In this document: positions 5,401 to 24,211 of the stretch, one piece after another
How the letters are laid out: each line of letters opens with the position of its first letter
Position numbering within the stretch: position 1 is the stretch's first letter
Source of the DNA: Bacteroidota bacterium
GTDB lineage: Bacteria; Bacteroidota; Ignavibacteria; Ignavibacteriales; Melioribacteraceae
NCBI GenBank assembly: GCA_018818165.1
Contig: JAHISP010000065.1
Location: 1 to 34,004 of the forward strand
DNA length: 34,004 nt
Reading direction: 5' to 3'
The notes under the pieces: generated by a model
Told to the model about the DNA's origin: nothing
What the model saw: only the letters and a program-made list of their open reading frames with translations
Databases searched by the model: none
Made by a program: the position numbers and the translations under genes

Positions 5401-5603
5401 GGTTTATAAAGCAATGCTGTCAACTTAAGACTATTCGTCATTTCAAATGTGGCTAAAGCCATTTCTTCTCTATTTATTTTTATCCAGTCGCTTAAAAGCG
5501 ACAGCAATTGCCGTTTACTTTAGTAAACTGATTTTAGAAAAACAAAAACTATAATGGCTTTAGCCACATTTGGATCATTAATTTGACAGCATTGGTTTAT
5601 AAA
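5401..5603. mobile_element. MITE-like element, 183 bp, with 10-bp target duplication
   Basis: The decamer GGTTTATAAA occurs at 5401-5410 and again at 5594-5603, in direct orientation. Between the copies lie 183 bp that begin GCAATGCTGTCAACTT and end TTTGACAGCATT; the ends are inverted repeats (AATGCTGTCAA exact). Inside is a perfect 19-bp inverted repeat (5445-5463 with 5553-5571, core GTGGCTAAAGCCA). There are two further hairpins: GTCGCT/AGCGAC at 5487-5502 and GTTTAC/GTAAAC at 5513-5528, separated by CAGCAATTG. No gene fits inside. This is the architecture of a non-autonomous miniature element mobilised in trans. It sits directly downstream of the terminator of the secreted beta-helix protein gene. 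The 344-bp gap 5291-5634 holds nothing else. Confidence 0.8.
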
Positions 5604-5634: not shown

Positions 5635-8600
5635 CTATTTAAGTAGAAGGGCTTTTCTAACTTGTGTAAAGTTCTTGTTGTAACTTAATCCATCTGCTCT
5701 AAGACTAATTAAATAAATTCCACTTGGTAAGTTTGAGGCATTCCAAGTAGTCTCATAATAGCCAGCAGATTTTTCCTGATTAACTAAAATACCAACGCTC
5801 TGACCAAGCATATTGAATATTTCTATTTTCACATTACTTGGTTCAGGCAATCCATATTTTACCATTGTACTTGGGTTAAATGGATTTGGATAATTCTGTT
5901 CCACAATAAATTCTGATGGAATTATTGATTCATTTTTCAATCCAGTAATATTGTTATCAATATTAAATGTACCAAGATCAGAATATTGTGAATACAAACC
6001 GTCATCATTTATTGACCGAGCTCTCCAGTAATATTTTGCTCCACCAGAAAGTCCGCTTAAAGTATAATATGGATTTTTCAAATTGGTATAAACTTCCGAA
6101 TTACTCATATCCTTATTTAATGATATCTCAACTTCATAATTTAGTTCAGTTTCAGAAGTTATTGGTAAAATCCACGATAAGGTTGGAGAATCGGTCTGCA
6201 ATGTGACATCACAATTTGGACTGCCAGGAATTAAAATTATTGGTGTTGAACAACATGCATTTAGAACAAAAGATTCAACAGAAGAATAGTTTGAAACAAG
6301 TGCATGATTAGATGCCAACCTTGAACGAACTTGCCAATAATAAATTCCTCCAGGAACTAACGCAGGCATGGTAAAGAAAGCATCAGTTGACCACGCGGAA
6401 GTTGAAGTTGCATTTTGCAGCACACCACCAACTGTAACAGCAGATGGGGAATAAAGAACTTCATATTCCAGACCAGTACTTCCGCTATTTAAATACCAAT
6501 AAAGCTTAGGTGTTTCAGTATAAACAGTTGTCCCTCCAATTGGCCATGATGGAATTGGTATTGCAGCCCCAGCTGTTGAAACATTAACTACGAAAGATTC
6601 TTGAACAGACCAATCTGAAGCAATTAATCCATCCCTTGAGCGGACTTGCCAATTGTATGTTTCTCCATTTATCAATCCACTAAGAGTTGTATAAAGTGAA
6701 GTAATATTAGTAACATTTGGAGTTCCACTAAAAGCTCCAGTAGAATATTCAACTTCATAAGTTAACCCATTTCCAACAGCACCTAAATACCAGTACAAAA
6801 TTGGAGAATCTGTATAAACCGCAGCACCGCCAATAGGCCAAGAAGGAATAGGGATTATTGGTGCGTTATTTGTTCCAAGCGTAGTAAAACTCTCTTGTAC
6901 TGACCAGTCTGAAGTAATTGCCCCATCTCTTGAGCGAACTTGCCAATTATAAGTTGCTCCACTTTCTAAACCACTAAGTGCATAAAAGGAAGTAGTAATA
7001 TTTGAGACAGTGGCAGTTCCAGTTAATACACCTGTACTATATTCAATATCATACTTTAATCCGGTTCCGACGGTTCCTAAATACCAGTATAAAATTGGTG
7101 AATTTGTGTAAACAGTAGAATTACCAATTGGCCAAGATGGAATAGGAATTGTTAGTTCACCAATTGTTCCAGCAATAGTAAAACTGGCTTGAACGGACCA
7201 ATCTGAAGTAATTGCCCCATCTCTTGAGCGAACCTGCCAATTATAAGTTGTTCCACTTGCTAAACCACTAAGTTCATAAAAAGTAGTGGCAATACTTGAG
7301 ACAGTTGCATTTCCAGTTAATACTCCCGTGCTATATTCAATATCATATGTCAAGCCAGTTCCATCAGCACCCAAATACCAGTAAAGAAAAGGAGAATTGG
7401 TATAAACAATAGGGTTTCCAATGGGCCAAGATGGAGTAGGAATTACAGTTGTAACAGCAACTGGTAAGGTTTTGAAATTCTGAATAACTGAATAGGCAGA
7501 TATTGCACCGGTTGAAGTTCGAGAACGTACTTGCCAAAAATAGGTAGTTCCATCAGCAAGTCCAGTAATTGTTTTATTTATTGCATTAATGTTATTGATA
7601 ACAATTGCACCAGACATATCTGCATTTACTGAGTATAGTAAGTCGTATGTTGTACACGATCCGTACCAATAAAGATTAGGAGAGTGTGTATAAACAAAGG
7701 CTCCGTTAATAGGGTGCGTTAAATTAGGAATAGCAGCCGAAGTTGTAATAAAATTGTACGCTGCCGAATAATTACTTGTACCTAATAAATTTGTAGCACT
7801 AACATGCCAAAAATATTGCGTGCTATTGGATAATCCTGTTACAATATAGTTGGTTGCAGTAATTCCACTAAATGTTTGAACATCTGTTGTAAATGAAGCA
7901 TCTGATGCCACTTGAAGCGTGTATGAGGCTGCACCCGATACAGCATTCCAAGAAAAGTTTGGTTCAATAGATTCACCAATAGCAAAATTTGAAGGAGAAA
8001 CTAGAACTGGAATTGTTGGAGCAGTTAAAGAAAATTCATAAGCTCCAATATCAACTGTTCCATTAAAAATACGAGCATTTCCATCTAAGTCAAATGCACT
8101 ACCCATCCAAGGTTGATTAAGTCCAGCATCAATACATGCTGAGCCATATGGTAGGTCAAATGGATTAAGAGTTAAATCAGTACCTGTATATGGATTATCG
8201 GTAATGTTGCCTGTTCCAATAAGAGCATTAGAAGTACAGTTATTATTGAAAACACTACCCGCATTGGCTACTTGTACATCTAAACCAGTGTTATAATATG
8301 AAATTGTATTTTCCATCAAAGAAGAGTCTTTGGTTCGCACTCCTGCGCCATTTGGAGCTGTATTATTTGTTATGGTACAGTTTTGTATTGTTCCGGAACT
8401 CCAAATGTTAATTCCCCCACCATAATTAACAGAGGTGTTGGAATGAATTAAACAGCCACGTGTCGTTCCACCATTTAGCATTCTAACTCCACCACCATAA
8501 CCGCTGGAGCCATTATCACTTGCTAAATTATTTGCGATTACACAGTTCAGAACAAGTCCACTATTATCAATTGCAACACCACCACCATCACGCGCTTGGT

Positions 8601-9795: not shown

Positions 9796-11187
9796 ATGAA
9801 TTACAAAGAATTATTATTACAAAAAGTTAACAACAAAACGTTTAAGGTAGGTATTGTTGGTTTGGGATACGTTGGTTTACCATTAGGGCTTGAATTTGCC
9901 GAAAAGGAATTTAATGTGCTTGGTTTTGATATGGATCAAAGGAAGATAGATTCACTTGAAAAAGGCGAGACTTACATTAAACATATTCCAACATCAAGAA
10001 TTAGCAAATCTGTAAATTCTGGATTTCTAAAATCAACAACAGATTTTAGCAGAATGCCTGAAGTAGATGCATTAATTATCTGCGTACCAACACCCCTTGA
10101 TGAACACCGCGAACCTGATATGAGTTATGTTGAAGGAACAGCAAAAACAATCCAAAAATATTTGCGTAAAGGACAGTTGGTTACACTTGAATCAACCACT
10201 TATCCAGGAACAACTGAAGAAATGTTATTGCCACTTTTTGAAAATGCCCCAATATTTCAAAGTAAAATGAAGGCAGAGATTTCTCAGTCGTCTGAAAAAA
10301 TAGACTCCTTCGAAATGACAAATGTGAAATTTGTTGTTGGTGAGGATTTCTTCCTGGCTTATTCTCCAGAACGTGAAGACCCAAATAATCCAGATTATAA
10401 TACATCAACAATTCCAAAAGTAGTTGGTGGAATGACTGAAAATTGTTCCGAAGTAGCAAAAGCCATTTACGAAAAAGTAATAGTATCAATAGTGCCAGTG
10501 TCTTCACCAGCAGTTGCGGAAGCTACTAAAATTGTTGAAAATGTTTATCGTTCAATAAATATTGCTCTTGTAAACGAGCTTAAAATGGTGTTTGATAAAA
10601 TGGGAATAGATGTTTGGGAAGTAATTAATGCAGCTAAAACTAAACCTTTTGGATTTAATGCGTTCTATCCAGGTCCTGGATTAGGCGGACATTGTATTCC
10701 AATTGACCCATTTTACTTAACTTGGAAAGCTCGCGAATTTGAAGTAAATACAAAATTTATTGAACTAGCTGGAGAGATAAACACTTATCAGCCATATTAT
10801 GTTGTAGAAAAAGCAATGGCAGCGTTGAACGAAACTAAAAAATCACTAAACGGTAGCAAAGTACTATTAATGGGAGCTGCATACAAAAAGAATGTAGATG
10901 ATATGCGCGAATCACCATCTCTAAAATTGATAGAAATATTAAGAGAAAAAGGCGCCGAAGTTGATTATAATGACCCATATATTCCAGTTCTTCCAAAGAC
11001 AAGAAAATATAACTACAAAATGGAATCAGTTGAATTAACTGCAGAAAATATTGCAAAGTATGATTTAATTCTATTAAGCACAGATCACGATGATTATAAA
11101 GAGCATCTCAATTTAATTCACAAAAACGCTAAAGCTATTCTTGATACAAGAAATATGTTTCAGGGATATAAAGTATTTAAAGGATAA
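9796..11187 (+). CDS. wbpA: UDP-N-acetylglucosamine 6-dehydrogenase family (WbpA-like)
   Basis: This 463-residue UDP-sugar dehydrogenase oxidises C6 of a UDP-hexose(amine) to the uronic acid with two NAD+. Visible features are the N-terminal NAD fold with GLGYVG (22-27), CVPTPLDEHREPDMSYV, STTYPGTTEE, the AYSPERED motif (about 188-195), and the catalytic Cys300 in PGLGGHCIPIDP. The C-terminal UDP-binding domain has AYKKNVDDMRESP. AYSPEREDPNNP and the overall pattern favour the WbpA/UDP-GlcNAc branch over UDP-glucose dehydrogenase, but substrate is an inference. Residues about 151-179 are an extra segment not usual in the family; its DNA resembles a dispersed repeat (see separate entry). It is the first of four nucleotide-sugar genes on this strand; the ATG follows AGTGGGG at a short distance. 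Confidence 0.9.
   Translation: MNYKELLLQKVNNKTFKVGIVGLGYVGLPLGLEFAEKEFNVLGFDMDQRKIDSLEKGETYIKHIPTSRISKSVNSGFLKSTTDFSRMPEVDALIICVPTPLDEHREPDMSYVEGTAKTIQKYLRKGQLVTLESTTYPGTTEEMLLPLFENAPIFQSKMKAEISQSSEKIDSFEMTNVKFVVGEDFFLAYSPEREDPNNPDYNTSTIPKVVGGMTENCSEVAKAIYEKVIVSIVPVSSPAVAEATKIVENVYRSINIALVNELKMVFDKMGIDVWEVINAAKTKPFGFNAFYPGPGLGGHCIPIDPFYLTWKAREFEVNTKFIELAGEINTYQPYYVVEKAMAALNETKKSLNGSKVLLMGAAYKKNVDDMRESPSLKLIEILREKGAEVDYNDPYIPVLPKTRKYNYKMESVELTAENIAKYDLILLSTDHDDYKEHLNLIHKNAKAILDTRNMFQGYKVFKG
10272..10322 (+). repeat. Repeat-like segment inserted in frame in the dehydrogenase gene
   Basis: The stretch runs from GGCAGAGATTTCTCAGTCG through GTCT/AGAC (a short hairpin around GAAAAAAT) to CTCCTTCGAAATGACA. 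This form (GAGATT..CTC..TTCGAAATGACA) matches the style of dispersed intergenic repeats in this lineage, and TTCGAAATGACAAA also occurs, on the other strand, in the intergenic repeat near 11411-11424. It encodes about 17 of the extra residues (roughly 159-175) in the dehydrogenase without breaking the frame. Exact boundaries are uncertain. Confidence 0.55.
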
Positions 11188-11552
11188 AAGAAGAAAGAAA
11201 AAAATTAAATATGAATGGAATACTTCAAGTATGCTAGAATGCTGGTTTTTCTGTCATGTCTTCGAAGAATTTCCTTGTGCCAAAGGCATCTTTGGGGGGA
11301 GAGAAAAGCCTCTTTGTGTTAAGCAATGCTGTCAACTTAAGTTCTTGTCATTCCGTGAAGTTTTTACACGGAATCCAGTTTGGGGAGGAGATTCTTGCTT
11401 CTTGTTTGTCATTTCGAACGAAGAGAGAATTCTTGTTCTTTTGCTGTGATTGGCGGGGATATTTCACACAAAGAATGAGTTCAATATGACAAAAATTAAT
11501 ATGGAAAATAATACGTTTATTCGCAGATGATTTTTATAAAGGAAAAATAAAT
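11188..11552. repeat. Cluster of dispersed repeats between wbpA-like gene and wecB
   Basis: No gene is supported in these 365 bp. A TGTCATGTCTTCGAAG block begins near 11251, and AAAGGCATCTTTGG follows near 11282. A sequence identical over 21 bp to the left end of the MITE-like element (5409-5429) lies at 11321-11341. After it come GTCATTCCGTGAAG with a CCGTG/CACGG hairpin, and TGTCATTTCGAACGAAGAGAG near 11408, closing with GAGTTCAATATGACA near 11475-11492. The frames that are open here only reflect the repeats. This looks like nested insertion of several small elements, the last of them bounded by TGTCAT and ATGACA ends. Confidence 0.65.
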
Positions 11553-12689
11553 TTGAAAAAAATAATCTCAGTTGTTGGTGCAAGACCAAACTTTATGAAA
11601 GTTGCACCAATTCATAAAGCATTTAGGAATTACGAAGATAAAATAACTCATTTAATTTGTCACACGGGACAGCATTATGACGAAAAAATGAGCAAAGTGT
11701 TTTTTGAGGATTTAGAACTTCCGCAACCAGATTTTTATCTCGGTGTTGGAAGTGGCTCGCATGCAGAGCAAACAGCAAATGTTATGATTGAGTTTGAAAA
11801 AATTCTCATAAACGAAAAGCCAGATTTAGTCCTCGTTGTTGGTGATGTAAATTCAACAATTGCATGCAGTTTAACGGCAAAGAAACTCCACATAAAAGTT
11901 GTTCACGTAGAAGCTGGTTTGCGTAGTTTTGATATGGAAATGCCAGAAGAAATAAATAGAATTTTAACAGATAGAATTTCAGATTTTCTTTTTGTAACAG
12001 AAAAAAGTGGTTTGGAAAATCTCAAAAATGAAGGCGTTGATGATTCAAAAGTTTTCTTTGTTGGAAATGTAATGATTGACTCGCTTGTTCATTATCAACC
12101 CAAAATTGATAAATCAAACATTTTGGAACACTTTAAGTTGGCATCTGTCATCTCCAAAGAAAATTCTCACGTTTCACGTCTCACATCTCGCGGTTACGTT
12201 TTAGTTACCCTTCACCGTCCAAGTAATGTTGATACAAAAGAATCCTTAGAAAAATTAGTAAAATTTCTGAATATTATTGCCAAGGAAAGAATGGTGGTTT
12301 TTCCAATTCATCCAAGAACCAAAAGCAATTTGGAAAAATATGCTCTCATCCAAACATTGAGCGATACAATAATTCTTTCGGAGCCAATTGGGTACATCGA
12401 TTTTCAAGCGTTAATTAAAAATGCAGAACTAATTGTAACTGATAGCGGTGGAATACAAGAGGAAACAACATATTTGGGAGTTCAGTGTATTACACTTAGA
12501 ACTTCTACCGAGCGCCCAAGCACCGTTGATATTGGAACAAATCAATTAATAGGTGTCGATTTGGAAAAAGCAGAAGTAGCTTGCTTAAATGTGCTTGCTG
12601 GAAACAAAAAAGCTGGAACAATTCCAGAACTTTGGGACGGCAAAGCGGCGGAGAGAATTGCGGAAATATTGTGTAAAGAAGAGGTTTGA
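11553..12689 (+). CDS. wecB: UDP-N-acetylglucosamine 2-epimerase (non-hydrolysing)
   Basis: The 378-residue protein interconverts UDP-GlcNAc and UDP-ManNAc (or the corresponding uronic acids) in the cytoplasm. It shows the WecB hallmarks: GARPNFMKVAPI (9-20), CHTGQHYD, GDVNST with Asp98, HVEAGLRS with Glu120, MPEEINR with Glu132/133, TLHRPSNVD with His221, and the TDSGGIQEE segment near 297-304. The start is a TTG preceded by AAAGGAAA about 9 bases upstream; no better start is available. Residues about 197-212 (ASVISKENSHVSRLTS) are an unusual insertion just before the beta-strand that carries His221; the DNA there is repeat-like. Next to a UDP-sugar 6-dehydrogenase, the pair would make UDP-ManNAcA or an epimerised uronic acid for a surface polysaccharide; this pathway link is inference. 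Confidence 0.92.
   Translation: MKKIISVVGARPNFMKVAPIHKAFRNYEDKITHLICHTGQHYDEKMSKVFFEDLELPQPDFYLGVGSGSHAEQTANVMIEFEKILINEKPDLVLVVGDVNSTIACSLTAKKLHIKVVHVEAGLRSFDMEMPEEINRILTDRISDFLFVTEKSGLENLKNEGVDDSKVFFVGNVMIDSLVHYQPKIDKSNILEHFKLASVISKENSHVSRLTSRGYVLVTLHRPSNVDTKESLEKLVKFLNIIAKERMVVFPIHPRTKSNLEKYALIQTLSDTIILSEPIGYIDFQALIKNAELIVTDSGGIQEETTYLGVQCITLRTSTERPSTVDIGTNQLIGVDLEKAEVACLNVLAGNKKAGTIPELWDGKAAERIAEILCKEEV
12141..12188 (+). repeat. Low-complexity repeat-like insertion inside wecB
   Basis: The segment begins GCATCTGTCATCTCC and continues as a degenerate tandem of TTCTCACG, TTTCACG, TCTCACA and TCTCGCG. It codes for about 16 residues absent from typical WecB proteins, which run directly from the preceding helix to GYVLVTLHRP. 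Both the TGTCAT start and the TCAC-tandem resemble non-coding repeats rather than protein-coding sequence. Confidence 0.5.
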
Positions 12690-12697
12690 AAAACAAA

Positions 12698-12768
12698 ATG
12701 GGATGATGGAAAAATGGAATGGTGGAAAAATGGAATGGTTGAATTGCTGAATTGTGGAATGGTTGGAA
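12698..12768. repeat. Imperfect short tandem repeats (ATGGAATGGT-like)
   Basis: Units of about 16 bases, such as GGAAAAATGGAATGGT, repeat imperfectly and then decay into TTGAATTGCTGAATTGTGGAATGGTTGG. The remainder of the 233-bp gap to the next gene holds a second low-complexity run (TATCTTTTATC, TAGTATCTTGTGTC, TTTTGTCTTG, near 12845-12882). No gene is visible. Confidence 0.65.
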
Positions 12769-12922
12769 TAATGAGAGTCGGATATTGAGCAATTATTCTA
12801 AATCACTTAGCTTTGTTTTTGTCAGAGAAAGTCTTTTTGCTCTTTATCTTTTATCTAGTATCTTGTGTCTTTTGTCTTGCTGCTAAACTATTAACTAAAT
12901 TATTTATATAGGAAATAATATC

Positions 12923-13975
12923 ATGAAAATACTTATCACTGGCGGAGCTGGTTTTATTGGCTCTCACGTTGTGCGATTGTTTGTGAACAAATATCCAAAC
13001 TATGAAATATATAATTTGGATAAATTAACTTATGCTGGAAATCTCGAAAACTTAAAAGATATTGAAGAAAAGCCAAATTACACATTTATTCACGGTGATA
13101 TTGTTGACGGCGATTTTATACAAAATCTTTTTAATGAACATAAATTTAATGGCGTTATTCATCTCGCGGCAGAATCGCATGTTGATAGATCAATTTCAAA
13201 TCCGATGGAATTTATTCAAACAAACATTGTTGGAACAGTAAATTTACTAAATGCCGCAAAGGCAATCTGGAAGGATAATTTTGAAAATAAACTCTTCTAT
13301 CATATTTCCACCGATGAAGTATATGGCTCGCTAAATGACGAAGGATTTTTTACCGAAGAAACGCCATATTCGCCACACAGTCCTTATTCAGCTTCAAAAG
13401 CTAGTTCCGACCATTTGGTTCGTGCTTATAACGACACATTCGATTTGCCAACGGTAATTTCAAATTGTTCAAATAATTACGGACAAAATCAATTTCCAGA
13501 AAAACTAATTCCATTATTTATAAATAACATAATCAATAAAAAATCGCTTCCAGTTTATGGAAAAGGAATAAACGTCCGCGATTGGCTTTATGTTGTTGAC
13601 CATGCAACCGCAATAGATGTTATTTTCCACAAAGGAAAGGTTGGTGAAACATATAATATTGGTGGAAATAATGAATGGAAAAACATTGATTTAATAAAAG
13701 TTCTTTGCAAAGTAATGGATAAAAAACTCGGTCGTGAAGTTGGCGAATCGGAAAAATTAATAACCTACATTGTAGATAGAGCTGGTCACGATTTACGATA
13801 CGCAATAGATTCAACCAAACTACAAAAAGAACTAGGCTGGAAACCATCACTACAATTTGAAGAAGGCTTAGAAAAAACAGTCGATTGGTATTTGGCAAAT
13901 ACCGAATGGCTAAACAACGTAACTAGTGGTGCTTATAAAGAGTACTATTTAAAGCAATATTCGCAAAAGGAATAG
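12923..13975 (+). CDS. rfbB: dTDP-glucose 4,6-dehydratase
   Basis: A 350-residue extended short-chain dehydrogenase that converts dTDP-glucose to dTDP-4-keto-6-deoxyglucose, the branch point for rhamnose and many other deoxysugars. The NAD-binding GGAGFIG is at 7-13, the catalytic STDEVYG at 129-135 (Thr130, Asp131, Glu132), and the YSASK pair at Tyr155/Lys159. LAAESHVDRSI and NCSNNYGQNQFPEKLIPL are the diagnostic RmlB segments. Length is normal for the family and no insertion is seen. The ATG is preceded by AGGAAAT. The stop codon TAG (13973-13975) lies inside the beginning of the downstream inverted-repeat element. Pairs functionally with rfbA 131 bp downstream; rfbC and rfbD are not in the window. 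Confidence 0.96.
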   Translation: MKILITGGAGFIGSHVVRLFVNKYPNYEIYNLDKLTYAGNLENLKDIEEKPNYTFIHGDIVDGDFIQNLFNEHKFNGVIHLAAESHVDRSISNPMEFIQTNIVGTVNLLNAAKAIWKDNFENKLFYHISTDEVYGSLNDEGFFTEETPYSPHSPYSASKASSDHLVRAYNDTFDLPTVISNCSNNYGQNQFPEKLIPLFINNIINKKSLPVYGKGINVRDWLYVVDHATAIDVIFHKGKVGETYNIGGNNEWKNIDLIKVLCKVMDKKLGREVGESEKLITYIVDRAGHDLRYAIDSTKLQKELGWKPSLQFEEGLEKTVDWYLANTEWLNNVTSGAYKEYYLKQYSQKE

Positions 13976-14070
13976 CAACACGGATTTGACAAATAAAACG
14001 GATAAGAACGGATATTGAGATTCTTAAAATCAGCGAAAATCTGCTTAATCCGTTAAATCAGCGTGCTATT
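13971..14070. repeat. Imperfect inverted-repeat element overlapping the rfbB stop codon
   Basis: The left end AATAGCAACACGGATTTGAC and the right end (reverse complement AATAGCACGCTGATTTAAC) are imperfect inverted copies. Between them CGGAT recurs and AAATCAGCGAAAATCTGC appears. This 100-bp unit resembles dispersed intergenic repeats seen in Bacteroidota-related genomes. It starts within the rfbB stop codon, so the element may have supplied that stop. Confidence 0.6.
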
Positions 14071-14106
14071 TTTGTTTAACTTTATACTTGCAAACCGGAG
14101 GTTTGA

Positions 14107-23257: not shown

Positions 23258-24211
23258 TTAATCGGATATTTTTATTGCTTTATGAGAACTTGCAAATGCG
23301 CTAAAATAGCCAAGTGCATTATTTGTCCAATTAGAAATTGGATTTGTTGGCGCAACAGATGTACTGCTTGGTCTTCCACCCGATGAACTTCCTGAAGCAT
23401 TCACACTATTTGCAGTTTTATAAAAATCGTACGTTGCTTTATCAATTGATTGCAACTCAACTGTAATTATATCGCCAATATTTAGATTAAGAACTTCAGC
23501 ATCTAATTGAGCTCTGGCATTTATGTCATTTCCATCTGTATATTTGTCATCATACACAATAAACCCCGCTAAATCCTTTTCATTGTGAGATATTTTAAAG
23601 CGACAGTAATTTGCAATGTCTGGTTCATCTTTAAAATAAATATGTAAAATATAACGCCCTTTACCACTGCTACTTCTTGGGCCAAGCTTGGATTTTTCAA
23701 TTGTTAGAGAATCTATTTCAATTCTATTGGGCATTTTGGATTCTGCAAAATAATTTTTCCCCTCAACATTTACTTCAACAGAGTAGTTAGTGTTAGTATT
23801 ACCAATTATCAAATCTGTTCTGTATTCGCCAGGCATTACTTCAATCATTGTTGCACTTTTACCTTTGTCATCTGAAATTATAACAACTGCATCCGAAACT
23901 CTTTCGTATTCGCCAACGGTATAAAAATCAGTAGATTTTGTAATAACCATTGTGCTAACAGAGCTTGTATCAGATATTTTAGCTTCCAAAACAATTGCTG
24001 TATTTGCAGAGTTCAAATCAATTTGAATAACATCTTCACAGCTAAAGAGTAAAAATGTCATTAATACTAATGTTATTGTTAAAATGCCTTTTTTTACTGG
24101 ACTAAGCAGCATTTTATTAGAGGTTGCTGCACTCATTCTTCTTAATATTTTTTTCGAAGATTGGTTTGGTTTGCAATGACTTTCTCTGTTTATATTTTTA
24201 TTTGTGTTCAT
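23258..24211 (-). CDS. DUF4249 lipoprotein, partner of TonB receptor, with extended N-terminus
   Basis: A 317-residue protein of the DUF4249 family: lipobox FLLFSC with Cys58, then the family's opening EDVIQIDLNSANTAIVLEA and a long beta-rich body, ending SNWTNNALGYFSAFASSHKAI, which is typical of the family. DUF4249 proteins are outer-membrane lipoproteins encoded next to TonB receptors and thought to serve in substrate uptake. The gene begins 9 bases after the receptor's stop; AGGAAG overlapping that stop is a good ribosome-binding site for the ATG at 24211, which I chose for that reason. However, this gives a 42-residue basic stretch before the hydrophobic core, far longer than usual; residues about 11-39 coincide with repeat-like DNA. 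Internal starts at Met26 or Met34 would give normal lipoprotein signals but lack good ribosome sites. Confidence 0.8.
   Translation of the reverse strand: MNTNKNINRESHCKPNQSSKKILRRMSAATSNKMLLSPVKKGILTITLVLMTFLLFSCEDVIQIDLNSANTAIVLEAKISDTSSVSTMVITKSTDFYTVGEYERVSDAVVIISDDKGKSATMIEVMPGEYRTDLIIGNTNTNYSVEVNVEGKNYFAESKMPNRIEIDSLTIEKSKLGPRSSSGKGRYILHIYFKDEPDIANYCRFKISHNEKDLAGFIVYDDKYTDGNDINARAQLDAEVLNLNIGDIITVELQSIDKATYDFYKTANSVNASGSSSGGRPSSTSVAPTNPISNWTNNALGYFSAFASSHKAIKISD
24097..24182 (-). repeat. Repeat-like insertion between start codon and signal peptide of the DUF4249 gene
   Basis: On the minus strand this begins GTCATTGCAAACC with AACCAATCTTCG after it, continues GAATGAGTGCAGCAACCTC and ends near a GCAGC/GCTGC pair. 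GTCATTGC...CAATCTTC is a common opening of dispersed intergenic repeats in this lineage. The insertion keeps the frame. Boundaries are approximate. Confidence 0.5.

Follow-up and report, generated by a model that had tools for sequence, protein, structure and literature searches.

Short repeats as in-frame segments of nucleotide-sugar enzymes and secreted proteins in an Ignavibacteria genome

How can small repeats settle inside reading frames and leave the host gene intact? This question is raised by a cluster of four nucleotide-sugar genes in the window, meaning the whole stretch of 34,004 nucleotides (nt) analyzed here, which is contig C16 of the 4.88-Mb, 105-contig genome of a Bacteroidota bacterium from the class Ignavibacteria (Melioribacteraceae). 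The cluster encodes a nucleotide-sugar dehydrogenase (UGDH), a UDP-GlcNAc 2-epimerase, an NAD-dependent dehydratase (best Pfam match GDP_Man_Dehyd), and a nucleotidyl transferase. A first-pass annotation had proposed that two of the four genes carry repeat-like in-frame inserts, and this is borne out: the UGDH insert holds a member of a dispersed palindromic family, termed family A, and the epimerase insert overlaps an array of 7-nt tandem units (heptads). No insert was noticed in the dehydratase and nucleotidyl transferase genes, where no search aimed at inserts was made. Probably, short DNA is supplied by the mobility of repetitive extragenic palindromes (REPs) with REP-associated tyrosine transposases (RAYTs) and by the expansion of heptads, and selection keeps those in-gene copies that lie in frame in tolerant loops.

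The own-genome sample comprises 853 kb; some of its sequences overlap, the window's own loci are among them, and loci matching the repeats or the secreted-protein domain described below are over-represented. Whether a copy lies outside genes was judged by open-frame length, without a gene finder. As controls, the same pattern was read backwards or the sequence was reversed. Heptads and octads (8-nt units) were scored as runs of identity at one fixed lag.

Repeats inside two nucleotide-sugar enzymes

UGDH has a match at E≤0.001 in 58 of 58 genomes searched, the own genome included. The best-matching named records are mostly from Ignavibacteria, and the nearest UGDH by identity (84%) belongs to a Melioribacteraceae bacterium (L190). 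Across 29 orthologues, many species have a short insert site and others a longer one of different content, so that empty sites, as the first-pass annotation had anticipated, do exist. The family A element encodes residues 161–175. Its pattern, GTCATTTCGA-N5..35-GAGAAATCT, occurs at 11 places in the 4.88-Mb genome and at none when read backwards. Two of these copies lie in UGDH paralogues (in the window and on C93); nine further ones fall in short open frames only (41–106 amino acids) and are taken as intergenic. Hence, the dispersed copies predicted for the inserts are found for UGDH, mostly outside genes and also in frame. They are not found for the epimerase insert as a whole, which has no other BLAST match in the 853-kb sample.

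The UGDH of the window and its C93 paralogue are 80% identical in protein sequence. At conserved residues, 16 of 17 third codon positions agree within the insert, compared with fractions of 0.54 in the 5′ part (n = 93), 0.63 in the 200 nt after the insert (n = 51), and 0.67 gene-wide (n = 358). Because third positions agree less well elsewhere, a recent conversion event perhaps passed the insert between the paralogues, or its DNA is under constraint; both readings draw on small numbers. The longest identical run of the two genes (41 nt) lies elsewhere in the gene, and the second (37 nt) overlaps the insert. In the structural model of UGDH, built with 30 sequences, the mean predicted local distance difference test (pLDDT) score is 83.4, and residues 156–175 fall below 50. 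This low-confidence loop sits between a helix (139–149) and a strand (185–189), with a four-residue helix (157–160) called within it. The HMMER alignment of UGDH with Cap5O (3ojl) breaks at the insert.

The same loop was collected from 111 loci, 105 of which gave a loop and six did not (one of them L082, which contains Ns). L155 has the same loop as L090, and L161 the same as L104; with distinct loops and genes counted once, 92 loops remain, 22–84 residues long. Different repeats occupy this one site. In the sister species G002, it holds GTCATTTCGATCCCGATTCATCGGGAGAGAAATCTTG, a different family A subtype that enters at the same codon as the insert of the window and in opposite orientation. A search of the G002 genome with this stretch gives 18 additional matches at E≤1, ten of them below 1e-3; a weak one (L252, E 0.23) fits the family A pattern and lies in frame in a second protein (FEIER-SSVISIEGRNL-NWEKIGF). 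The loop of L183 (G058) contains three in-frame GTGTCTCGACTACGCTC-like stretches—two adjacent by BLAST, the third truncated and read in the sequence—and this repeat has one more place in the G058 genome. In L091 (G027), the loop holds a CCCCCCTTACCAAGGGGGG palindrome with one other, weak genome place (E 0.0015). The loops of L083, L084, L097, and L191 are repeat-like by eye and were left out of the counts.

None of the 28 other aligned orthologues, one of them 92% identical, has the 14-residue insert of the epimerase, which again gives empty sites. The set consisted of 30 loci: the window itself, L120, which did not align, and these 28. In 4neq, the solved structure nearest in sequence, the insert falls in a gap. 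Among the 29 epimerases, all five lag-7 arrays with a score of at least 8 fall in two loops, and none outside. As a side observation, heptads in the epimerases of L112, L133, and L136 (approximately residues 197–211) cover the conserved strand before VTLHRPSN with protein length constant, as though a 7-nt period had been imposed on native codons; the array of L112 scores 7.9, under the cut-off of 8.

Heptads are in excess in the DNA between genes. In the intergenic part of C35 (400 kb), eight lag-7 and six lag-8 arrays were counted at a threshold of 9, and 0–3 at other lags of 4–23 that are not multiples of three. In the surroundings of UGDH genes at 80 named loci, a single and non-random set, intergenic DNA gave 42 arrays at lag 7, 13 at lag 8, and 1–4 at each other lag of 4–13; coding DNA gave 11 at lag 7 vs 3, 0, 3, 0, 0, and 0 at lags 4, 5, 8, 10, 11, and 13. 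This excess of period 7 over other periods is that of a heptameric simple sequence repeat. Within the UGDH loop, seven of the 92 distinct genes have a lag-7 array (seven arrays in 8,862 nt), compared with one segment in total at lags 4–6 and 8–13. The epimerase array of the window shares its TTTCACN dialect with own intergenic arrays and with in-frame arrays of C-terminal secretion tails; such sites number 23 in the own sample vs 6 in reversed sequence. At L161, ACTTAAA-type heptads occur in UGDH, in the downstream GDP-mannose dehydratase gene (L161:6503-7630, Pfam PF16363), and in intergenic DNA, which is the situation of the window repeated. In-frame heptad arrays were also seen in two DegT/DnrJ/EryC1 aminotransferase genes (L203:6427-7704 and L228:3245-4498).

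Secreted-protein loops and candidate mobilizers

A second set of host proteins shares a domain with 23 matches in the genome and no Pfam match at E≤1; the label "secreted" reflects the Por secretion-type tails with which several of these proteins terminate. Fourteen of the 23 matches were readable by pattern, and the remaining ones were dropped. In the domain model, both variable loops lie between strands, and loop 2 has a short helix. Among the 14 paralogues, loop 2 is occupied in eight by family R (AACCTCCGAGG...CCTCGGAGGTT) and in two by the GAGCGGAGTCGAAG repeat, and is short in four; loop 1 holds family K (GTAGCACAGA...TCTGTG, with some arms changed) in seven. The C-terminal tails (28 in the sample) comprise seven with heptads, four with family K in another frame, one with another palindrome, one with three extra residues, and 15 that are short. 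Demonstrably repeated across the two loops and the tails are thus R, K, GAGCGGAGTCGAAG, and heptads. Loop 1 of L306 and L307 is encoded by ACGTTGCGTGCAACGT, which has the palindromic arms ACGTTGC/GCAACGT; an old repeat may thus be present in shorter loops as well.

Family R was counted at 28 places genome-wide, against zero in the control: seven in frame in loop 2, 19 in open frames of at most 81 amino acids, and two unclear (L282, L295). Since called frames cover 87% of C35, family R is depleted in genes apart from loop 2. An eighth in-gene copy, in loop 2 of L318, is a variant outside the pattern, and its paired changes (CCACC...GGTGG) keep the palindrome within coding sequence.

Two of these families adjoin transposase genes. 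Y1_Tnp (PF01797) has nine matches in the genome, herein called RAYT loci. Family K flanks one of them (L264) on both sides in inverted pairs approximately 65 nt apart and consists of a terminal GTAG tag with a short palindrome behind it (GTAGCACAGATTAGTAATCTGTG, GTAGCACAGAATAGCATTCTGTG). Both features match a GTAG-type REP with its RAYT; the listing of family K has 33 rows in the biased own sample, some copies being counted on both strands. Family R, also a palindrome, lies on both sides of two RAYT loci (C92:33155 and C22:334662), and no GTAG or CGTC tag was seen in the stretch covered by its matched pattern. GGCTTTAGCC motifs stand beside or within two of the nine RAYT genes. Mobility is supported for K and R because both flank such genes, and RAYT-type Y1 transposases are likely to be the mobilizer that would transpose them.

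At a further RAYT locus (L261), two TTTCACN arrays lie on either side of the gene, one 164 nt past the gene end and the other beyond two open frames. Heptads as RAYT cargo were considered here and rejected, the arrangement being taken as a coincidence in view of these positions and of the locus's own AGTTGGGC palindromes by the gene. A small gene pair, toxin–antitoxin-like by eye, lies between a heptad array and the RAYT gene (L261:530-1148).

Origin of the in-frame segments

Short repeat DNA has probably kept reaching these genomes, at sites throughout, by at least two routes. REP-like palindromes would be moved by RAYT-type Y1 transposases, the kind of gene that K and R adjoin, and 7-nt tandem arrays would enlarge by slippage-like expansion. 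Most arrivals in genes would be lost; survivors would be in frame, devoid of stops, and situated in a tolerant loop, where selection would retain them and translation would make them part of the protein. The UGDH and epimerase inserts of the window are probably two such survivors, and the repeats of the cluster spacers probably come from the same supply.

Several findings weigh against this account. None of the nine RAYT flanks holds family A, the GTCATTGCGA family, or the GTCATTCC family, and for this reason family A is not filed as a RAYT-linked REP. All seven exact in-gene copies of R sit at a single site of one paralogous family, and a single event may account for them, as it may for family K in loop 1. 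The palindromes AGCTTGTCGAAGC, TTCTGAAC..GTTCAGAA, and GACATTCC..GGAATGTC, located in loop 1 (L311, L319) and one tail (L074), each occur only once in the own sample. At least three of the 18 G002 matches (L250, L254, L255, all weak) span the leader alone and are chance-like. The coding DNA of C35 (350 kb) has no heptad excess, with one array at lag 7 vs 0–3 at lags that are not multiples of three, and on this basis heptads as a general feature of coding DNA were rejected. Lag 7 is raised outside the UGDH loop too (10 arrays in 116,868 nt; 0–2 at other such lags up to 13), and the epimerase loops were delimited only after the heptad positions had been looked at. Finally, the conserved UGDH stretch 291–309 likewise has low pLDDT, and therefore the low-confidence loop gives weak support.

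The loops might instead be fast-evolving and disordered, their likeness to repeats being chance in AT-rich, low-complexity DNA. This would suit the long UGDH loops of L109, L186, L192, and L193, in which no repeat is recognizable by eye, as well as the missing second match of the epimerase insert. It is at odds with the absence of A and R from the controls, with lag 7 alone standing out in the loops among lags 4–13, and with the palindrome of family K, which is kept in two kinds of protein segment and in two frames. Given the copy counts, chance can hardly explain A, R, K, and the G002 insert, and it is highly improbable as the general explanation; for single loops devoid of copies, it may hold. 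Purposeful targeting of these genes or loops by the elements or by a host system, which would act as a diversity generator, is likewise very unlikely. Several unrelated repeats do occur in the same loop across genera, and in the own genome (G000) and G002 the same codon is hit. However, the families differ in sequence and in probable mechanism, K enters different loops and frames, A and R lie mostly outside genes, and tolerance of the loops covers the same facts with less.

A less improbable alternative, still one that we doubt, is that single old insertions were later spread by gene duplication, domain shuffling, and gene conversion, with little new insertion. K and R occur together in seven of the eight secreted-domain paralogues that carry R, and the insert shared by the two UGDH paralogues is nearly unchanged at third positions. 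Such spreading leaves the different repeats at one site in the sister species and other genera unexplained, and the paired changes in L318 speak against it. A bolder possibility, to be regarded as tentative, is that "docking loops" of Ignavibacteria are repeatedly rebuilt from any short repeat DNA, and that heptads grow within genes and overwrite native codons of conserved strands without change of length, by an undescribed templated process. If this were true, new loop sequence would routinely arise from repeat capture in the lineage.

Insertion combined with selection for tolerant loops also fits better than a device for making protein segments. The first-pass annotation had envisaged a system that creates protein segments from mobile repeats; mobility finds support for K and R, and for family A no mobilizer was found. 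Because several unrelated families and heptads are involved, and because copies of A and R lie mostly outside genes, the pattern does not look like one dedicated system.

Surroundings, known systems, and significance

Table 1 Coordinates of the features discussed, in the window unless a locus is named
Feature	Position	Strand	Basis or remark
Compound inverted repeat	5403..5603	.	End AAGCAATGCTGTCAACTTAAG has 21/21 nt in common with spacer 1 end
UGDH, UDP-glucose/GDP-mannose dehydrogenase family, with palindromic insert	9796..11187	+	Pfam PF03721, PF00984, PF03720
In-frame UGDH insert (leader and element), approximately residues 153–177	10252..10325	+	Alignment with 29 orthologues and paralogue
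Family A element GTCATTTCGA...GAGAAATCT inside UGDH	10277..10319	-	Dispersed palindromic repeat
Spacer 1, repeat mosaic	11188..11552	.	11304–11394 with GTCATTCCGTG...CACGGAATC dispersed
UDP-N-acetylglucosamine 2-epimerase gene, 14-residue insert	11553..12689	+	Pfam PF02350
14-residue epimerase insert LASVISKENSHVSR, residues 196–209	12138..12179	+	Own genome only among 29 aligned sequences
Heptad array TCTCACG TTTCACG TCTCACA TCTCGCG	12165..12192	+	Begins within insert, continues into native codons
Spacer 2	12690..12922	.	Octad array ~12695–12774, then heptad array ~12831–12884
Spacer 3	13976..14106	.	Internally repetitive by eye (ACGGAT / ATCAGCG)
Degenerate GTCATTGC...GCAATCT-like stretch, 5′ end of DUF4249 frame	24097..24182	-	Loose likeness by eye
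Y1 open frame at L264	1417-2022 (L264)		PF01797, 34.8 bits, cut-off 23; family K at 1329/1393 on one side, four at 2103-2430 on the other

The spacers of the cluster are in part built of the same kinds of DNA. Spacer 1 has at least 61 genome matches at E≤10, self included (40 of 108 first-look candidates scored), and at least 21 non-self matches at E≤1e-5, every one inside 11304–11394. Its positions 11405–11421 have 16 of 17 nt in common with the end of the UGDH element. The inverted repeat upstream of the cluster that shares an end with this spacer is a member of a group of seven regions, the other six of which lie in C35. The octads and heptads of spacer 2 resemble arrays at other genome places. 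For spacer 3, no convincing second copy was found in the 853-kb sample, the best match being 25 nt long (E 0.024–0.048). The claim that every spacer consists of recognizable repeats thus stands for spacers 1 and 2, which have dispersed or array relatives, and lacks a proven second copy for spacer 3.

A third gene with an in-frame insert had been proposed at DUF4249 and is given up here, the likeness being degenerate. The GTCATTGCGA...GCAATCT pattern has seven copies in the own sample and none in the control, and the DUF4249 stretch does not fit it. The stretch is common to the sister species G002 and absent from G001, G003, and G004. Since it precedes a lipoprotein signal, it probably lies upstream of the true start codon and is not counted as a protein insert; a start at MLLSPVKKG, past the stretch, would suit that signal. 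Elsewhere in the window (6600–7287), 294-nt tandem repeats, approximately 80% alike, were seen within a 1129-residue protein.

Comparable systems are described in the literature, here taken from the relevant passages of the papers cited. Intragenic REPs with GTAG or CGTC tags, in "REP-decorated" open reading frames, are listed in several bacteria, and in Xanthomonas the site occupied in two recB genes is approximately the same and the REPs differ (PMC3733652, 2013). As in those passages, small palindromes lie in frame in known proteins and REPs flank RAYTs; family K opens with GTAG, and at its RAYT locus the REPs form inverted pairs. In contrast, many targets named there are genes of DNA synthesis and repair, whereas here they are nucleotide-sugar enzymes and secreted domains, which take REP-like and non-REP repeats alike (PMC3733652). 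Rickettsia palindromic elements (Ogata 2000, 2002; Claverie and Ogata 2003, as cited in PMC10969869, PMC2759123, and PMC3733652) are likewise described as in-frame palindromic inserts in unrelated genes, with the gene kept and empty sites in relatives. They are given as approximately 150 nt long with conserved peptides (PMC10969869), in contrast to the approximately 20–45 nt, several families, and admixed heptads found here; the elements were told apart from them by length. Enterobacterial RU/ERIC elements are also small mobile sequences fused to open reading frames; those described are 103–168 nt long and belong to another lineage (PMC2759123). Heptamers are reported as TAACTGA in Beggiatoaceae (PMC4679880) and GGGAATC in Xanthomonas and Nostoc (PMC4692102). 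They share with the present arrays a 7-nt tandem unit over-represented between genes; according to these passages, each group has one main unit with variants, mostly intergenic, whereas here the units are degenerate, array-specific, and in some cases in frame in conserved enzymes (PMC4679880, PMC4692102).

The first-pass annotation had named Rickettsia as the known case and was aware of none in this lineage. The former is too narrow, in view of the in-frame REPs listed for several other bacteria (PMC3733652); as to the latter, no report of in-frame repeats in Ignavibacteria, nor of degenerate heptads in frame in conserved enzymes, was recognized among the open-licence PMC texts listed. Hence, loops that recurrently take up several families and in-frame degenerate heptads appear to be new, and in-frame REPs are already known elsewhere.

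For annotation, caution is advised: repeat DNA is the source of peptide segments like KTSEVFKNLGG, VAQISNLC, and VAERSRS, which are not necessarily conserved motifs. The findings extend REP "decoration" to Ignavibacteria, link two inserted families to probable transposase loci, and add heptads as a second kind of donor. The loops of these surface-sugar enzymes and secreted proteins thereby offer natural, repeated tests of which loops tolerate insertion, in which the donor DNA is still recognizable.

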